Shown: piece after piece, positions 393-8,973 of the stretch | Layout: each line of letters starts with the position of its first letter | Position numbering within the stretch: the stretch's first letter is position 1 | DNA from: Alphaproteobacteria bacterium | GTDB taxonomy: Bacteria > Pseudomonadota > Alphaproteobacteria > UBA2966 | NCBI GenBank assembly: GCA_030740435.1 | Contig: JASLXG010000079.1 | Span: 1 to 41,237, forward strand | Direction of reading: 5' to 3' | DNA length: 41,237 bases | Made by a program: the position numbers and the translations under genes | The notes under the pieces: model-generated | Database searches by the model: none | Told to the model about the DNA's origin: nothing | The model's input: only the letters and a program-made list of their open reading frames with translations

Positions 393-599
393 CTAATCGT
401 CGCGCTCATCCAGCCAAGTCATCTGGATGGCTTCGAGGGTTTTTTCGCTCGACGCTTCGGGGTCGTCGGCGAAGTCCGGCAGTTCGCAGACCCAGCGGTG
501 CAGGTCGGTGAAACGAACGCCCAGGATCTCGACCTCGGGATAGGTGTCTTCGAGCGCGATGGCGATATCGCGCACATCGGCCCATTTCATGGCAGGCAT
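393..599 (-). CDS. iscX: IscX, small iron-binding modulator of Fe-S assembly
   Basis: IscX is a small acidic protein that binds iron and IscS and tunes cluster assembly on IscU. The 68-residue product has the usual family length. It shows the family pattern: W5, the VRFTDLHRWVCELPDF core at about 28-43, and the DDPEASSEKTLEAI stretch followed by a C-terminal WLDERDD. The start overlaps the fdx stop by one base (TGATG at 601-597), so the two are translationally coupled. An alternative start at M4 would remove three residues. It is the last recognisable gene of the isc operon, its usual place in proteobacteria. Confidence 0.93.
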   Translation of the reverse strand: MPAMKWADVRDIAIALEDTYPEVEILGVRFTDLHRWVCELPDFADDPEASSEKTLEAIQMTWLDERDD

Positions 600-937
600 C
601 AGTCGCTGTCGACCATCATGTTGCGGGTGGCGGCGGGCAGCTTGACGACCAGGCCGTCGAGCTCCGGGCTGATGATGATCTGGCAGCCCAGGCGCGAGGT
701 ATGGGTCAGGCCGAAGGCCAGATCCAGCATGTCCTCTTCGTCCTCGCTGGCCTCGGGCAGCAGGTCGAAATACTTGTCATCGACGATGACGTGGCAGGTC
801 GAGCAGGCCAGCGCACCCTCGCAGGCACCTTCGAGATCGATGTCGTTCTTGTGCGCCAATTCCATCACGCTGAGCCCTTCCGGCGCCTCGACCTCGAGAC
901 GGCTGCCGTCGGGTTTGACAAAGGTCATTTTGGGCAT
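599..937 (-). CDS. fdx: ISC-type [2Fe-2S] ferredoxin
   Basis: This 112-residue ferredoxin supplies electrons for cluster formation on IscU. The four [2Fe-2S] ligands are visible as C39, C45, C48 and C85, with C39-x5-C45-x2-C48 in the [10 protein letters not shown] segment. That spacing is the adrenodoxin/Fdx type rather than the plant type. The ATG at 937 is preceded by an AGGAAAAAA ribosome site about nine bases away; M4 is a weaker alternative. It lies 32 bases after hscA and couples to iscX through a one-base overlap. The acidic helix ([10 protein letters not shown], about 62-71), used by this family for partner docking, is intact. Function is assigned confidently from motif and position. 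Confidence 0.96.
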
Positions 938-969: not shown

Positions 970-2850
970 CTAGCCCCCATCCAGCGATTCCACCGCCACG
1001 CCCTGCAGGGCGCCACGGATGCCGCGGTCCATGCGACGTTCGGCAAAGGCCTCGCTGACCCTGTTGAGAGCGGCGATGGCAGCGTGAATGCGGTCGCGAT
1101 CGTCACCCGTCATGGCCTCGCTGAGCGCCTCGGCGTGGTGCTCGACCTCGGCCCGCTCAGCCGCGGCCAAGAGGTCGCCATCTGATTCCAAAGCCGACTT
1201 CAACGAGATCAGCATGCGATCGCCCTCGACCCGGGCCTCGCGCAAGAGCCGCGCCAGCATGTCTTCCTGGGCAAATTCCATGCTTTCCCGCAGCATGCGC
1301 GCCATCTCGTCTTCGTCGAGGCCGTAGCTCGGTTTGACCGCCACTTCCTGGACCACGCCCGTGGTCTCCTCCTGGGCGCTGACGGTAAGCAGGCCGTCGG
1401 CATCGACGGCGAAGGTGACGCGGATGCGGGCGGCGCCCGCGGTCAGGGCGGGAATGCCGTGCAGCTCGAAGCGCGCCAGCGAGCGGCACTGATCGACCAG
1501 TTCGCGCTCACCCTGCACCACATGCACCATCATGGCCGTCTGGCCGTCCTGATAGGTGGTGAAGTCCTGGGCTCGGGCCACCGGGATGAGAGTGTTGCGC
1601 GGGATCACCTTTTCCACCAGATCGCCCATGGTCTCGATGCCCAAACTGAGCGGGGTTACGTCGAGCAGCAGCGTCTCGGAGCCTTGGGTCAGGGCTTCGG
1701 CCTGCAGCGCCGCGCCCAGTGCCACCACCTCGTCGGGGTTGATATCGCTCAGCGGCCGGCGGCCGAAGAACTCGCCGACGCGCCGGCGCACCAGTGCAAG
1801 CCGCGTCGAGCCACCGACCAGCACCACGCCCTTGACCGCCTCGGCCGCCACCCCGGCATCGGCCAGGACGTCTGCGCAGATCCGCACGGTGCGTTCGACG
1901 AGATCGCCGATCAGGCCCTCGAGAGAAGCCACATCGAGGCTGTGCTCGGTGGTGCTGCCGGCCACATCGAGGCGCCAGGAGCCGCTTTCCGCCCGGCTCA
2001 GGCATTCCTTGGCCAGGCGTGCCGTGGCCAGCGCCAGGCGCGCCTCGGCGGCATCGCGGGGTGCGGCGCCGGCGGGGCGCTGGCTGAGGAAGTGATCGAC
2101 GATGGCGTGGTCGAAATCGTCACCGCCGAGCTGGGCGTCACCGCCCGTAGCCAAGACCTGGAAGACCCCCATCTCGAGACGCAACAGCGAAATATCGAAG
2201 GTCCCGCCGCCCAGGTCGTAAATGGCGTAGAGCCCCTCGACACCCTTGTCGAGGCCGTAGGCCAGCGCCGCCGCCGTGGGTTCGTTGATCAGGCGCAGCA
2301 CCTCCAGCCCGGCCAGCCGGGCGGCGTCCTTGGTGGCGGCGCGGGCGGCATCGTCGAAGTAGGCCGGCACCGTGATCACCGCCTTGTCGACCGCCGCGCC
2401 CAGGGCCCCTTCGGCCCGCGACTTGAGGGCGCGCAAAATATCGGCCGAGATCTCCACCGGCGTCAGCCGGCGCTGGCCGATGCGCAGCCGCGCCATGCCG
2501 CCCTCGGCGGCCTCGTCATCGATGTCGTAGGGCAGCGTGCCGGCCACCGATTTGATGTCGGCGACGCCCCGGCCCATCAGCCGCTTGATCGAGGTGACGA
2601 CGGATTCGGGTCTGTCCAGCAAGGCGCGGCGCGCCGCCTCGCCGACTGTCGCCTCTGTCGTTCCTTCATAGGCCACCACCGAAGGCACCAGACCGGCACC
2701 GTTGGGATCGGTGATGATCTCGGGCCGGTTATCGGCGGCCATGGCGACCAGGGAGTTGGTGGTGCCGAGATCAATGCCGACCGCGGCGCTACTTTCGGCA
2801 TGGGGCAGCGGCGTCTCGCCGGGCTCGTGGATTTGCAGCAGCTTGACCAT
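970..2850 (-). CDS. hscA: HscA, Hsp70-type chaperone for IscU
   Basis: HscA is the specialised Hsp70 that, with HscB, uses ATP to release clusters from IscU. The 626-residue length fits HscA (about 615-620) rather than DnaK. The nucleotide-binding domain shows the phosphate-1 loop GIDLGTTNS at 25-33, the [11 protein letters not shown] segment and the phosphate-2 loop [12 protein letters not shown]. The substrate-binding domain follows, containing [11 protein letters not shown], and then a shorter helical lid than DnaK. The start is ATG at 2850, 10 bases after the hscB stop; the ribosome site is weak. Its client motif LPPVK is present in the IscU encoded upstream, which supports a dedicated pair. 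No frameshift or missing motif was seen. Confidence 0.97.
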
Positions 2851-2860
2851 CAGGGAACCA

Positions 2861-3490
2861 TTAAGCCCGGGCCAGCTCGCCCTTGCGTCGCCGGATTTCC
2901 TCGTCCAGCTTGACCAGGAAGCGCAGCCGCAGGCAGTGCCGTTGGGCCGCCTCGAGGTCGTCGCCGGCGAAGGCCTCTGAGATCTTTTCGACGCAACCGG
3001 CGTTGGCTTCGCGGCTCTCGCTCTCGATGGCCTCGACTTCCTCGCGGCTGGCTGCCCCGGCCAGGGCCTCGCGGGCCGTCATGGCCTCCATCAGAAGCTC
3101 CGGATCGCGGTTGGCGGCACCCTCGTCTTCCAGCGCCGCGCCCTTCAGGGCGAGCAACGACTCGGCCCGGCTGAGCGGCGCCATGAGCACGCCGTAGGCT
3201 TCGTTGAGGTCGGTGGCGTGCTGCAAGGATAGCTGCTTTTCGCGGGCCGGCCGGGTGGCGAAGCGGTCAGGGTGGAAGTGGCGCTGAAAGGAAAAATAGT
3301 TGCGCTCGACCTGGTCGGTGTCGAGGTCGAAGGACTGGGCCAGGCCGAGTCGGGAAAAATGATCGACCGGCCGGGGCGGCTGAATGGTGCCGCAGCCGTG
3401 GCAGAACGAGGCACGCTGGTCGACCGAGCCATGGCACGACCAACAGGGCGCCAGAGCGGCTTGGCCGCTTGTTTGTTGCTCTTCTGTCAC
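2861..3490 (-). CDS. hscB: HscB, J-domain co-chaperone with N-terminal tetracysteine motif
   Basis: HscB recruits IscU to HscA and stimulates its ATPase. The 209-residue protein has a J-domain with the diagnostic HPD at 73-75 (FHPDRF), followed by a three-helix C-terminal domain that binds IscU in homologues. Unlike the E. coli protein, it has an N-terminal extension with C16-x2-C19 and C30-x2-C33, a probable zinc or other metal site resembling the one in mitochondrial HSC20/HSCB. The start is GTG at 3490, with GGAAAA about ten bases upstream; no ATG alternative keeps the cysteines. It is separated from iscA by 68 bases and from hscA by 10. Confidence 0.93.
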
Positions 3491-3558: not shown

Positions 3559-3891
3559 CTAGACGTGGAAGGATTCGCCGCAGCCGCAGCGGCCTTTTTC
3601 GTTGGGATTGTTGAATACGAAGCCCGATTGCAGCTTTTCGCTGACGAAATCCATCTCGGTGCCGACGACGAACATCACCGCCTTGGGATCGACGAAGACG
3701 GTAACGCCGTTGTCCTCGACCACCTCGTCGAACTCGCCTTGCTCGTCGGCATATTCGAGGGTGTAGGAAAGTCCCGAACAGCCAGCCGTGCGCACGCCGA
3801 TGCGCACGTTGCCGGTTGCCTTGGCGCGTTTGCTGAGCAGCGCCTTGACCTGCTCGGCGGCGGCATCCGTGATCGTCATCACCTGTGGCAT
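3559..3891 (-). CDS. iscA: IscA, A-type Fe-S carrier
   Basis: A-type carriers accept clusters from the IscU scaffold and pass them to apoproteins. With the start I choose, the product is 110 residues with the three invariant cysteines C38 (TAGCSG), C102 and C104 (GRCGCGESF), typical of IscA/ErpA. The open frame extends upstream to 3930, but the ATG at 3891 has a GGAG about eight bases ahead and gives the normal IscA N-terminus (ITDAAAEQVK); the longer form would overlap the iscU end. Its place between iscU and hscB favours IscA over ErpA or SufA. Confidence 0.94.
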   Translation of the reverse strand: MPQVMTITDAAAEQVKALLSKRAKATGNVRIGVRTAGCSGLSYTLEYADEQGEFDEVVEDNGVTVFVDPKAVMFVVGTEMDFVSEKLQSGFVFNNPNEKGRCGCGESFHV

Positions 3892-3926: not shown

Positions 3927-4349
3927 TCAAGCACTGTCTCTAATGTCATCATTGTCGTCGTCCACGTCAATACCGCGCTTCTGGCGGTAATCCTGGACGG
4001 CCGCCTTTATGGCATCCTCGGCCAGCACCGAACAGTGGATCTTGACCGGCGGCAGGGCCAGGTGCGAGGCGATATCGGTGTTCTTGATGGCCGCCGCCTC
4101 GTCCAGGGTCTTGCCCTTGACCCACTCGGTGACCAGGCTCGATGACGCAATGGCCGAGCCGCAGCCGAAGGTCTTGAACTTGGCATCCTCGATGATGCCG
4201 TCCTCGGCCACCTTGATCTGCAGGCGCATGACATCGCCACAGGCCGGCGCGCCCACCAGGCCGGTACCGATCTCGGCCTCGTCCTTGTCGAGCGTGCCGA
4301 TGTTGCGCGGGTTTTCGTAGTGGTCGATGAGTTCGTCGCTGTACGCCAT
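3927..4349 (-). CDS. iscU: IscU, Fe-S cluster scaffold
   Basis: IscU is the platform on which [2Fe-2S] clusters are built from IscS sulfur and iron. The 140-residue product carries the three scaffold cysteines C37 (APACGD), C63 (FGCGSA) and C106 (IHCS), and the D39 that favours cluster release. The LPPVK motif recognised by HscA is at 99-103, immediately before C106, as in E. coli. The C-terminus has an unusual acidic stretch (DVDDDNDD) beyond the standard end. The ATG at 4349 has a GGAGG nine bases upstream. It lies 28 bases after iscS. All residues needed for function are present. Confidence 0.97.
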   Translation of the reverse strand: MAYSDELIDHYENPRNIGTLDKDEAEIGTGLVGAPACGDVMRLQIKVAEDGIIEDAKFKTFGCGSAIASSSLVTEWVKGKTLDEAAAIKNTDIASHLALPPVKIHCSVLAEDAIKAAVQDYRQKRGIDVDDDNDDIRDSA

Positions 4350-4377: not shown

Positions 4378-5619
4378 CTAATGTCCCGACCATTCGATGC
4401 TCTTGAGGTCGATACCCTGCTGGGCCATTTCCCAGAGCGGGCTCATGTCCCGCAGTTTCTTGACCCGGTTGATCACCGTGGTCACGGCATAGTCGATCTC
4501 GGCCTCGTTGGTGAAGCGGCCGATGCCGAAGCGGATCGAGGTGTGGGCCAATTCGTCCTCGACACCGAGCGCGCGCAGCACGTAGCTCGGCTCGAGCGAG
4601 GCCGAGGTGCAGGCCGAACCCGAGGAAACCGCGAGATCAGGCATGCCCATCATCAGCGATTCGCCCTCGACGTAGGCGAAGCTCAGGTTGATATTGCCGG
4701 GGAAGCGCTGTTCGCGGTCACCGTTGAGGAAGGTATCGGGCAAGCTGTCCGCAATGCCCCGGTAGAAGCGGTCGGAAAGATAACGGATGCGCTCGGCTTC
4801 GGCCGCCATCTCACGCTCGGCGATACTTGCCGCCTCACCCAGGCCGACGCAAAGCATTGGCGCCAAGGTGCCGGACCGCATGCCGCGTTCCTGGCCACCG
4901 CCGTTGATCAGGGGACGCAAGCGTACCCGGGGCTTGCGCCTGACATAAAGCACGCCGATACCCTTGGGACCGTAGATCTTGTGGCCCGAGATGCTCATCA
5001 GGTCGATGTTCATGGCATCCACGTCGAGCGGGATCTTGCCCACCCCCTGGGCCGCGTCGGTGTGGAAGAAGGCGCCCTTTTCGCGGCACAGGCGTCCAAT
5101 CTCGGCCAACGGCTGGATGACGCCGATCTCGTTGTTCACGGCCATCACCGAAACCAGCACCGTGCGCTCGGTGATGGCGGCGGCCAATTCGTCCAGGTCG
5201 ACCAGGCCGTTCTCGGCCACCGGCAGGTAGGTGACCGAGATGCCGTCGTCCTGCTCCAGGTGGCGGCAGGTGTCGAGCACGCATTTGTGTTCGGTAACCA
5301 CGGTGACAATGTGGTCGCGCCGGTCACGGTAGAAACGTGCCACGCCCTGCAATGCCAGATTGTTCGATTCGGTGGCGCCCGAGGTGAAGACGATCTCCTT
5401 GGCAGTGGCACCGATCAGGCTGGCGACCTGGGCCCGGGCTGCTTCGACGGCTTCCTCGGCTTCCCAGCCGAAGGAATGGCTGCGCGAATGCGGGTTGCCG
5501 AATTTGGCGCCGAGATAGGGCATCATGGCTTCCAGCACCCGCGGATCCAGGGGTGTGGTGGCCTGGTAATCCATATAAATCGGCAGCTCGATATTGGCGC
5601 CGCTCTCTGCTTCAACCAT
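4378..5619 (-). CDS. iscS: IscS, main cysteine desulfurase
   Basis: This PLP enzyme converts cysteine to alanine and a protein-bound persulfide that feeds IscU. The 413-residue form starts at ATG 5619, chosen because GGAGG lies ten bases upstream; the open frame extends to 5691 but would overlap the preceding gene. The PLP lysine is K214 in [10 protein letters not shown], and the catalytic cysteine is C337 in [13 protein letters not shown], with 76 residues following it, exactly as in E. coli IscS. The long mobile loop of group I desulfurases is present. It follows a second, shorter desulfurase gene by 19 bases, so the operon encodes two such enzymes. Confidence 0.96.
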
Positions 5620-5638: not shown

Positions 5639-6775
5639 TCAGGCGGCGCTGCGTTGCGCCGCCCCTTCCATGACCCGCAGGCGCAAGGCACTCCAGGCCT
5701 CGAGCAGACGATCTATGTCCGCTTCCCGGGTTTGCCAGCCCAGGCTGACGCGGATCGCCGCGGCAGCATCGGTGGGCTTTACGCCCATGGCCGCCAGCAC
5801 TTGGCTAGGCGCCAGCTTGCCCGAGGAACAGGCGGCACCGGCGCTGACGCAGATGCCCTCGAGATCGAGCGCCATGACCTGGACCTCGCTGGTCAGGCCG
5901 GCCAGACCGAAACAACTGGTGTTGCCAAGACGCGCGGCGGCGCCGCCATGGATGCGAATATCGGGGCTGATCGCCCGCAGGCGCTCTTCGAGGTGATCGC
6001 GCAGAGCGGCCAGGGCGCCGGCTGCCGCCAAGTCATCGGCCGCCAATTCGGCCGCCGCCCCGAAGCCGACGATACCGGGAAGATTTTCGCTACCGGCGCG
6101 GCGCCCCAGTTCCTGCCCGCCGCCGACGATTTGCGGCGCCAAGGCAAGGCCCCGGCGCACCATCAGGGCGCCCGAACCCATCGGGCCGCCCAGTTTGTGG
6201 GCCGACAGACTGAGCATGTCGACGCCAAGCTCGGTCACGTCGAACGCCAGTCGGCCCGGTGCCTGAATGGCGTCGCAATGCACCAGCGCCCCATGGCCAT
6301 GGGCCATCGCGGCGGCCTCGGCCACGGGCTGGATGACGCCAGTCTCGTTGTTGGCCAGCATCAGCGACAAGAGCGCCGGGCCCTCGTCACGAGACAACTC
6401 CGCCGCCAGTGCCTCGAGGTCGATCACGCCGTTCCCGTCGACGCCGATGACGGCAGCCTCGGGGCCGGCCGCCAGCCTTACCGAATCATGTTCGACGGCC
6501 GATACCAAGAGCCGGCGCCCGGCCGCCCGGGCGGCGCCCAGCGCCAGGTTGTTGGCCTCGCTGCCACCGCTGGTGAAGACGATTTCGTCGGCGCCGGCGC
6601 CGATCAGGCCGGCAACCTGGGCCCGCGCCTGTTCGACGGCCCGCCGCGCCGCCTGGCCAGGGCGGTGCAGCGACGAGGGATTGCCAGCCAGCCTCAGCGC
6701 CTGCGTCACGGCCTGGGCCACCGCCGGCTTGATCGGCGTGCTGGCGTTGTAGTCGAGGTAAGCGGTGGCGGACAT
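5639..6775 (-). CDS. Second cysteine desulfurase (IscS/NifS-like)
   Basis: A 378-residue class V aminotransferase-fold enzyme encoded between iscR and iscS. It has the PLP-binding lysine in [12 protein letters not shown] and a candidate catalytic cysteine C316 in [14 protein letters not shown], followed by 62 residues. This places it in the group I (IscS/NifS) desulfurases, but it is shorter and clearly divergent from the adjacent IscS. The N-terminus starts directly in the fold (YLDYNASTP). The ATG at 6775 is 15 bases after the iscR stop; its ribosome site is poor. It could supply sulfur to IscU, to tRNA thiolation or to another acceptor; the sequence alone does not decide. Some annotations would call it iscS or nifS. 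Confidence 0.88.
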
Positions 6776-6790
6776 GACGGTAACAGGATT

Positions 6791-7267
6791 CTATTGTGCG
6801 GCTTCGTGCAGCGACAGCGTCTGATCACCTAGCGGCTGCAGCCGGCTGGAGCCCAGCACCCGGCGGTGAATGACATCGTCGAGGCTGACCGATGAGAGGT
6901 AAAGCTGGATCTGGTTACCCAGCTCATTCCACAAATCGTGGGTAAGACATCGGTTCTTGCGGCTCTGGCAGCCGGTGGCGGCACCCGGCATGCAGCGCGT
7001 CGCGGTCAGCGGCTCGTCGACCGCGACGACGATGTCGGAGACCCTGACCTCTTCGGGCTCGCGGCCCAGCCGGTAGCCGCCGCCGGGCCCGCGTACGCTT
7101 TGCACCAGGCCACAGCGCCTGAGCTTGCCGAAGAGCTGCTCGAGGTAGCTGAGCGAGATTTCCTGGCGCAGGGCGATTTCCGCCAATGACACCGGCTTGC
7201 CGGCGCTGTGAATGGCGAGATCGGCCATGGCCATGACGGCATAGCGTCCTTTGGTGCTGAGCTTCAC
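6791..7267 (-). CDS. iscR: IscR, Fe-S-sensing Rrf2-family regulator
   Basis: IscR binds a [2Fe-2S] cluster and, in that form, represses its own isc operon at type-1 sites. The 158-residue product has the Rrf2 winged helix (KLSTKGRYAVMAM to GPGGGYRL, about 2-67) and the ligand set C92, C100, C107 and H110 (RCLTH). The cysteines are spaced slightly wider than in E. coli but the LTH end is conserved. The frame can start at GTG 7273, but I prefer GTG 7267 because GAGGGGG then sits about six bases upstream and the N-terminus matches the family. A matching operator lies ahead of cysE at 8139-8163, so autoregulation of the whole operon is likely. Confidence 0.95.
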   Translation of the reverse strand: MKLSTKGRYAVMAMADLAIHSAGKPVSLAEIALRQEISLSYLEQLFGKLRRCGLVQSVRGPGGGYRLGREPEEVRVSDIVVAVDEPLTATRCMPGAATGCQSRKNRCLTHDLWNELGNQIQLYLSSVSLDDVIHRRVLGSSRLQPLGDQTLSLHEAAQ

Positions 7268-7281
7268 GTTCACCCCCCTCG

Positions 7282-8025
7282 TTAAGCGTTGGTTCTCGGT
7301 CCCGGCCGCCGCCCCTTGGGCGCCGGCAGAGGCTCGGCCTGATGCTCGAGCCGGTTTTCCAATTCCTCGACGCGGTTGCTGAGCGCCTTGACCTGGTCGA
7401 CCAGGCTTTCGACATAGCGTGCCACCGGGTCGGGAATCTCGTCCGTGGGCGTGCCGTAGGCATCGAAGTGGTTGGGCTGCTGGGCCGGCGCCGGCAGACC
7501 CACCGGCTTGGCCGGAATGCCGACCATGGTGGCGCCCTTCGCCACATCCTTCAGCACCACCGAGTTGGCGCCCACCCGGGCGCCCTGGCCCACCGTGATG
7601 GGCCCCAGGATCTGGGTGCCGGAACCGACGATGACGTCGTCCTCGAGCGTCGGGTGGCGCTTGAGATCAACCTGGCTGGTGGAATCCTCGGCCGGCGAGA
7701 TGCCGCCCAGCGTGACGTCGTGATAGAGCGTCACACCGTCGCCCACCACCGAGGTCTCGCCGATCACCACGCCCATGCCGTGGTCGATGAAGAAACCGCT
7801 GCCGATGACGGCGCCGGGATGAATTTCGATACCGGTGAGAAAGCGGCCCAGAGCCGAAACGAAGCGGCCCAGCAGATACCAGCGCCGACGCCACAGCGCG
7901 TGGGCCAGGCGGTGTATGACCACGGCGTGAAAGCCGGGATAGCAGAGCGCGATTTCGAGCCGCGAGCGCACCGCCGGATCGCGACCGAAGGCAGCATCCA
8001 TGTCGCTGCGTATGATCTTGAACAT
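7282..8025 (-). CDS. cysE: CysE, serine O-acetyltransferase
   Basis: CysE makes O-acetylserine from serine and acetyl-CoA, the committed step of cysteine synthesis. The 247-residue protein is the short EpsC type. It has an N-terminal helical domain, then left-handed beta-helix hexapeptide repeats from about residue 68 ([18 protein letters not shown]) to about 170, including the [20 protein letters not shown] active-site region. A C-terminal tail of about residues 200-228 is predicted coiled coil ([17 protein letters not shown]). It is first in the isc operon, 14 bases before iscR, so its product directly feeds the desulfurases encoded downstream. A GAGG ribosome site precedes the ATG. A cysE gene heading an isc cluster is also known in Azotobacter. 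Confidence 0.95.
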
Positions 8026-8038
8026 TGGCGCCCTCGTT

Positions 8039-8086
8039 TATGATATGTTGCGGCGTCCGCCATATGATATGTTCCGCCGTCCGCCG
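8039..8086. repeat. 24-bp tandem repeat, two copies, in the cysE leader
   Basis: Two adjacent 24-bp units (8039-8062 and 8063-8086) match at 21 of 24 positions. Each begins TATGATATGTT on the plus strand and ends in CGTCCGCC. They lie only 13 bases upstream of the cysE start and downstream of the predicted transcription start, so they would be in the 5' untranslated RNA. Each copy contains TATCAT on the cysE strand, which could also serve as an extra -10 element. Whether it is a regulatory site or a simple duplication cannot be told from the sequence. Confidence 0.75.
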
Positions 8087-8130
8087 CGCGATGCCGCCCC
8101 ATGACCGGCGTCACATGGCACTCAAGAGAC

Positions 8131-8159
8131 CATATAGGTAATCCGACTATTTCAGTCAA
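8131..8159 (-). promoter_or_regulatory. Sigma70-type promoter of the cysE-isc operon
   Basis: On the minus strand TTGACT (8159-8154) is followed by exactly 17 bases and then TATATG (8136-8131). These match the -35 and -10 consensus at five and four of six positions, with ideal spacing. Transcription would start near 8124, leaving a leader of about 100 bases that includes the 24-bp tandem repeat. No comparable promoter was noticed between the isc genes, which supports transcription as one unit from here. Confidence 0.75.
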
Positions 8160-8163
8160 GTTT
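8139..8163 (-). promoter_or_regulatory. Probable IscR type-1 binding site overlapping the promoter
   Basis: The core GACT-GAAAT-AGTC (8157-8145, minus strand) is a perfect inverted repeat. It fits the E. coli type-1 core GACT-RWWWY-AGTC at every position. The left flank AAACTT matches five of six positions of ATASYY; the right flank matches less well. The site covers the -35 element and most of the spacer, the arrangement by which holo-IscR represses isc in E. coli. The operon encodes IscR, so a feedback loop is the natural reading. Confidence 0.7.
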
Positions 8164-8301
8164 TTCTCTGAAATTCGGCGCCCCCAGTGCGTCCATAACC
8201 ATAGGATGGGGTGGGTTTTGCCGAAGATAACCAACGCCACGCCGCTTCTCTTCGGTGCACAAGGCTGGTGAGTGGAATACAGAGAGGAATACAGAGGAAA
8301 C

Positions 8302-8973
8302 ATGCCGGAAGTTACGATCATAGGGCCCGACGGCCGGCTCGAGGGCCGCTATCACCAGAATGCCGACCGCGATACCTCGCCCATCGCGCTTGTGCTGCAC
8401 CCCCATCCGCAGCACGGCGGCACCATGAACAACAAGGTGGTCTACAACGTCTACCACTGCTTCGTCCGCTTGGGTTTTTCGGTGCTGCGCTTCAATTTCC
8501 GCGGCGTCGGCCGCAGCCAGGGCAATTACGACGACGGCCTGGGCGAGCTCAGCGATGCCGCTTCGGCACTGGACTGGATGCAAAGCTATCATCCCAACGC
8601 CCCGGCCTGCTGGATCGGCGGCTTTTCCTTCGGCGCCTGGATTTCCATGCAGCTGCTCATGCGCCGGCCCGAAATAGACGGTTTCATCACCATCGCGCCG
8701 CCGGCCAACGTCTATGATTTCGCCTTCCTGGCGCCCTGCCCCTCGTCCGGCCTGGTAGTCCAGGGCGCGGCCGATGACATCGTGCCCGAGGAAGAGGCCA
8801 GCAAACTTGTGGGCCGGCTGCAAAGCCAAAAGGCCATCACCATCGACTACCAGACCATCGGCGGCGCCAACCACTTCTTCGACGACCACATAACCGAGCT
8901 CAACAAGATCATCGACGGCTACCTGGGCAAGGCCGTGAAGAAAAAAACCAAGAAGAAGATCGCCGGCCGTTAG
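8302..8973 (+). CDS. Alpha/beta-fold hydrolase (COG2945-like)
   Basis: A cytoplasmic alpha/beta hydrolase of 223 residues. It has the oxyanion segment LHPHPQHGGTMNN, the nucleophile elbow GFSFGAW, an acidic residue in QGAADDIVPEE and the catalytic histidine in GANHFFDDH, so the triad is complete. The C-terminus is a lysine-rich tail (KKKTKKK). The ATG at 8302 has AGAGGAAAC immediately upstream; a GTG at 8272 is an in-frame alternative that would put the ribosome site inside the gene. It is divergent from cysE, and its own promoter would lie in 8160-8300, which also holds a 7-bp inverted repeat (CCGAAGA 8221-8227 and TCTTCGG 8249-8255). The substrate is unknown. Confidence 0.88.
   Translation: MPEVTIIGPDGRLEGRYHQNADRDTSPIALVLHPHPQHGGTMNNKVVYNVYHCFVRLGFSVLRFNFRGVGRSQGNYDDGLGELSDAASALDWMQSYHPNAPACWIGGFSFGAWISMQLLMRRPEIDGFITIAPPANVYDFAFLAPCPSSGLVVQGAADDIVPEEEASKLVGRLQSQKAITIDYQTIGGANHFFDDHITELNKIIDGYLGKAVKKKTKKKIAGR

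Follow-up and report, generated by a model that had tools for sequence, protein, structure and literature searches.

Organization of the cysE-isc locus

The window, which is the whole stretch of 41,237 nucleotides that was analysed, contains a run of genes on the minus strand in the order cysE-iscR-nifS-like-iscS-iscU-iscA-hscB-hscA-fdx, of which cysE is the first. This run can be described as a co-directional isc operon, iscR-iscS-iscU-iscA-hscB-hscA-fdx, to which cysE is added at the head and a NifS-like gene after iscR. A hydrolase gene diverges from it on the plus strand. From the hydrolase down to the end of the run, the genes are as follows.

8302..8973, plus strand: alpha/beta hydrolase, divergent, beyond the operator as seen from cysE (PF12146, 46.3 bits)
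7282..8025, minus strand: cysE, serine O-acetyltransferase of the short EpsC-like type (TIGR01172, 224.9 bits; NF041874, 219.8 bits; both over the cut-off)
7268..7281, minus strand: gap of 14 bp between the ends of cysE and iscR
6791..7267, minus strand: iscR, Rrf2-family Fe-S regulator with a GTG start (TIGR02010, 187.3 bits, the best of all models)
5639..6775, minus strand: NifS-like cysteine desulfurase (TIGR03402, 350.4 bits, under the cut-off of 530.75)
4378..5619, minus strand: iscS (TIGR02006, 683.8 bits, over the cut-off)
3927..4349, minus strand: iscU (TIGR01999, 228 bits, over the cut-off)
3559..3891, minus strand: iscA-like gene, Fe-S_biosyn (PF01521, 78.5 bits over 3559-3882; start at 3891 from the ORF reading)
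2861..3490, minus strand: hscB (TIGR00714, 82.8 bits, over the cut-off)
970..2850, minus strand: hscA (TIGR01991, 835.9 bits, over the cut-off)
599..937, minus strand: fdx, ISC ferredoxin (TIGR02007, 95.5 bits, under the cut-off of 132.1)

The gap between cysE and iscR is only 14 bp long and therefore leaves no space for a separate operator. The iscR product does not reach the curated TIGR02010 cut-off of 207.55, and it was named from the best model, its ligands and its operon context, not from the cut-off. The three cysteines and one histidine that are the cluster ligands of IscR (C92, C100, C107 and H110), together with E43 and R59 of the DNA-binding domain, are invariant in an alignment of 13 sequences that includes E. 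coli IscR. The NifS-like gene corresponds to a second desulfurase, and it falls under every curated desulfurase cut-off that was compared. The alpha/beta hydrolase is a conserved isc neighbour in the class (Alphaproteobacteria).

cysE encodes the enzyme that catalyses the first committed step toward cysteine. In the genome, which has 4.5 Mb and is 98.64% complete, no serine acetyltransferase gene other than cysE was found; the next-best match, with 34% identity and an E value of 5.8e-8, is a weak hexapeptide match. Such a gene is also present once (E up to 1e-25) in 27 of 31 cysE-headed relatives, the other four having two or three by hand tally. At its C-terminus (~7330-7430), outside the hexapeptide domain, CysE has an extension with many charged heptad-like residues that by eye has the look of a coiled coil.

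The predicted operator and promoter ahead of cysE

About 115 bp upstream of cysE, an operator-like site overlaps promoter elements that face the run.

8139..8163, minus strand: IscR type I-like operator, 25 bp, 21 of 25 positions matching the consensus, kept in relatives
8145..8157, no strand: core palindrome GACT-N5-AGTC, GACTATTTCAGTC
8154..8159, minus strand: -35 element TTGACT, within the operator; 84 of 96 class sites have TTGA in this orientation
8131..8136, minus strand: -10 element TATATG after a 17-nt spacer; in relatives the -10-like hexamer peaks at spacing 17
8124, minus strand: putative transcription start, deduced from the -10 position, giving a leader of ~99 nt before cysE

The site was scored with the pattern ATASYYGACTRWWWYAGTCRRSTAT, the 25-bp consensus published for E. 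coli IscR type I sites, in the form given by the available text of PMC3899308. Its score of 21 is the top type I match of the window, where the runner-up reaches 18. A score of at least 21 was found in 0 of 200 simulated windows, in which 0.1 type I matches are expected at a score of at least 19. The bare 13-mer GACT-N5-AGTC is expected 0.27 times per window and occurs at least once in 19 of 100 shuffles; by itself it is weak evidence, in contrast to the score over all 25 bp of the type I pattern, which is strong evidence. According to the accessible part of PMC8561392, type I sites are asymmetric, with TTGAC and CCGAC, and every known type I promoter is repressed. The half-sites found here have the same asymmetry, with TTGAC at 8159-8155 on the minus strand and CCGAC at 8143-8147 on the plus strand. 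With this asymmetry and its 25-bp match the site is type I-like; type II sites have CCxYA in both halves.

The initial annotation had reported a perfect GACT-N5-AGTC palindrome and an ideal promoter, TTGACT-17-TATATG. We find the palindrome at 8145-8157 and the promoter on the minus strand at 8159-8131, as claimed, but "ideal" is too strong a word for a -35 element that scores 5 of 6 and a -10 element that scores 4 of 6. A sigma-70-type scan does not list this promoter because it requires T at position 6 of the -10 element. The operator covers the -35 element and most of the 17-nt spacer, an overlap that is conserved in relatives. In the region 7200-8400, no leader RNA element was matched in Rfam at E values up to 1. 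The cysE leader contains an imperfect 23-bp direct repeat at 8039-8085, TATGATATGTTGCGGCGTCCGCC and TATGATATGTTCCGCCGTCCGCC on the plus strand, of which the congener L013 seems to hold one copy only.

In the whole genome, the asymmetric core ACTTGACYNNNNNAGTCGG has a match with 0 mismatches only at this site, and none with 1 mismatch is among the matches listed. Looser genomic matches to this core do not exceed the control (175/169 vs 210/220), and the bare palindrome is not enriched genome-wide, being found in 8 places vs 16 for the reversed control. As near matches are no commoner than in the control, no further target and no wider regulon in this genome is claimed. A second copy of the identical 13-mer (G000:C227:11459) lies within a long open frame and so is probably not regulatory.

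Conservation within the class

The class set comprises 126 loci (30 + 96), which cover all 47 matches of one search and all 107 of another; it includes close relatives, and the loci are not independent. A site was counted as upstream when it lay within 450 bp before the head gene, with thresholds of 18, 19 and 20 of 25. cysE is directly upstream of iscR in 80 of the 126 loci and is not in the remaining 46. Among the 80 cysE-headed loci, a type I site of at least 18 lies ahead of cysE in 61, as compared with a shuffled mean of 3.35. The counts are 48 vs 0.6 at a score of at least 19, and 34 vs 0.05 at a score of at least 20. When the consensus itself was permuted, the mean over these loci was 3.3 and the largest count 15. 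Between cysE and iscR, sites were found in 1, 0 and 0 of the 80 at the three thresholds, respectively. Where no cysE is linked, a site of at least 18 stands ahead of iscR in 35 of 46 loci. The 19 cysE-headed loci that were missed score 15-17, and in many of them a TATAT-like -10 and CTTGA(C/T) can still be read by eye; one of these loci below 18, L132, belongs to the family of the source organism.

The promoter architecture is conserved as well. The best sites in the class (n = 96) turn TTGA toward the operon in 84 cases, CCGA in 9 and another sequence in 3. In 35 of the 84 TTGA-facing sites the best -10-like hexamer lies 17 nt after the -35, the next commonest spacing having 11; T, A and T occupy columns 28, 29 and 32, respectively, with frequencies of 71 to 77%. 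This orientation and the peak at 17 nt indicate that operator and -35 element coincide as a rule. Compared with the congener L013, a stretch that reaches from the A-tract beyond the -10 has 39 of 40 bases identical; the average identity of the whole upstream region is 81%. A second block kept with this congener lies in the gap between operator and hydrolase, at 8193-8219, and reads AAAACCCACC.CA...TATGG.TATGG on the minus strand; it is perhaps a hydrolase promoter.

The proposal of an IscR type-1-like operator over the promoter of a cysE-headed isc operon thus stands up in its score, 21 of 25, and in the conservation of the site upstream of orthologous operons, 61 of 80. Two of its details need rewording. 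The site had been placed ahead of cysE and not ahead of iscR; cysE does come first, but the site also precedes the operon that contains iscR. Furthermore, the arrangement had been attributed to this organism, where it is indeed present, but the layout is class-wide and not peculiar to it.

Operator position in other Pseudomonadota

The set outside the class consists of 60 of 63 places, one having been excluded as belonging to the same class and two left out. Here cysE is directly upstream of iscR in 30 loci, and in 27 of these a site of at least 19 lies between cysE and iscR. A site ahead of cysE was found in 4-5 of the 30 (4 at a score of at least 19), with both places occupied in 1-2; L259 has sites in both places at a score of at least 19. 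In L282, L290 and L304 the site is found solely upstream of cysE, the gap being short (71-72) as in the class; these three loci form one clade in the serine acetyltransferase (SAT) tree (100/97). In the 30 loci without a linked cysE, the site is ahead of iscR in 29. A further 80 named loci partly overlap the class set, and only names were taken from them: the site is between cysE and iscR in Shewanella, Thiotrichaceae, Nitrosomonadales and Burkholderiales, in both places in Azoarcus and Aromatoleum, and ahead of cysE in a Magnetococcales MAG.

The SAT tree was made from 34 of the 80 linked class genes, the 30 linked non-class genes, 20 hand-chosen unlinked class genes and E. coli CysE trimmed of its N-terminal 70 residues. 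Linked cysE genes from the class and from the other loci form one family, which is separate from the E. coli-type CysE (100/100) and includes 4 of the 20 unlinked class genes. The cysE-iscR pair is therefore probably old, and the position of the operator relative to it has changed; the tree speaks to family membership and not to the order in which these positions arose. By this comparison, the place of the operator relative to the probably old pair differs by lineage, and in the class cysE lies within the predicted IscR-controlled unit.

Proposed regulation and alternative explanations

We consider the site to be an autoregulatory IscR type I operator of an isc operon headed by cysE, through which holo-IscR would lower cysE together with isc, and we give this reading a probability of about 0.8. 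In the regulation that we infer from the sequence, IscR would bind at this site, transcription would start near the deduced position, and one transcript would carry cysE and the isc genes. When clusters are plentiful, [2Fe-2S]-IscR, the form that a type I site requires for binding, would bind 8163-8139 and cover the -35 element and most of the spacer. By analogy with known type I promoters and R. sphaeroides P2, holo-IscR would be expected to occlude the -35 element; RNA polymerase would be kept out, and cysE, iscR, the desulfurases and the scaffold genes would all be lowered. When clusters are short, as under iron limitation or with oxidants, apo-IscR would leave the operator, and O-acetylserine synthesis would rise alongside the machinery that consumes cysteine sulfur.

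The likeness of the site to an IscR operator is hardly an accident. The 13-mer alone is common enough to arise by chance, at the rate given above, but a chance palindrome is refuted by its conservation across the class and by the full 25-bp score, and its probability is negligible. It is also very improbable that the site is recognised by another Rrf2 regulator, instead of IscR or in addition to it. No protein of the genome passes the curated cut-off for RirA; one RirA-like Rrf2 protein, L311 (G000:C59:149-586), lies below it with 124.9 bits against 193, and the RirA box, an IRO-type motif of the form TGA-N9-TCA, resembles part of the operator. However, the same 25-bp pattern is present at the E. 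coli isc promoter, it adjoins iscR in nearly all of the non-class loci without a linked cysE (29 of 30), and IscR is encoded within the operon, as in autoregulation.

The operator could instead serve mainly the divergent alpha/beta hydrolase, or both directions equally. The hydrolase is divergent in 121 of the 126 class loci, 92 of these 121 have a site of at least 18 in the shared gap, and the site lies at a median distance of 107 bp from the hydrolase and 126 bp from the operon. In 84 of 96 sites, on the other hand, the -35-like half points toward the operon. Operators also exist among the 60 non-class loci, all of which lack the hydrolase at this place. We find this explanation rather improbable, and shared control of hydrolase and operon may exist. 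A weightier objection, though still an unlikely one, is that the operator governs iscR and isc while cysE answers chiefly to another promoter or to feedback inhibition, so that the Fe-S state barely affects cysteine supply. The leader measures ~100 nt, further promoters may exist, and the single serine acetyltransferase gene, the usual state in cysE-headed relatives, must stay on. Strong repression would bring cysteine starvation unless it were leaky or bypassed, since only one such gene was found; cysE is therefore hardly fully repressible, and either its turn-down is partial or other promoters exist. Against this objection, conservation falls on the site ahead of cysE, and the sigma-70-type scan of the minus strand from 8400 to 7200 gives no other promoter, although it covers one promoter type and misses the operator's own promoter as well.

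Under the preferred reading, an IscR operator acting on cysE and isc together, the consequences go beyond this locus. Fe-S clusters take their sulfur from cysteine, which in excess is toxic. The layout recurs across the class, and sulfur supply and cluster assembly are therefore probably governed together. More tentatively, and at somewhat below even odds in our estimate, the placing of the operator beyond the anciently linked cysE, class-wide and separately in the clade of L282, L290 and L304, may bring a usually single serine acetyltransferase into the Fe-S assembly regulon and make an Fe-S-to-cysteine homeostat, with the cluster sensor controlling how much sulfur donor is available to IscS. 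If true, one sensor would set both the supply and the use of cysteine sulfur. Lineages with the operator ahead of cysE can be set against those with it between the two genes as a natural experiment. Rodionov et al. 2006, a study of alphaproteobacterial iron regulons, reportedly predicted that R. sphaeroides and Caulobacter have an IscR box ahead of iscR. In the portions of the literature available to us, no statement was found of cysE as an IscR target in the class or of a class-wide operator before cysE, and Rodionov et al. 2006 may list cysE operons.

Comparison with known systems

In E. coli iscRSUA-hscBA-fdx, as here, type I sites lie over the isc promoter and the TTGAC half of the proximal site is turned toward the operon. 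In contrast to the window, E. coli has two sites ahead of iscR, and its cysE, which is of the long type, is apart from isc and adjoins gpsA and secB. The adjacency of cysE to isc genes is already known from P. aeruginosa, where the available text of PMC13256707 has a short cysE, PA3816, directly before the isc genes, an arrangement like the one described here. P. aeruginosa also has type I sites at its isc promoter, which the accessible text of PMC3899308 puts between -18 and -67 relative to the mapped iscR start; its cysE therefore appears to be outside the unit. Here, unlike in P. aeruginosa, the site precedes cysE, and 27 of the 30 cysE-headed non-class loci share the outside layout. The isc-suf promoter P2 of Rhodobacter sphaeroides resembles the window promoter in its IscR box, predicted at -36 to -19, and it shows stronger repression by holo-IscR, as far as the available part of PMC6956336 describes it. 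However, iscR heads the isc-suf operon in R. sphaeroides. Furthermore, R. sphaeroides IscR is said, in the accessible text of PMC4344238, to be without the cluster cysteines, whereas the IscR of the window has them.
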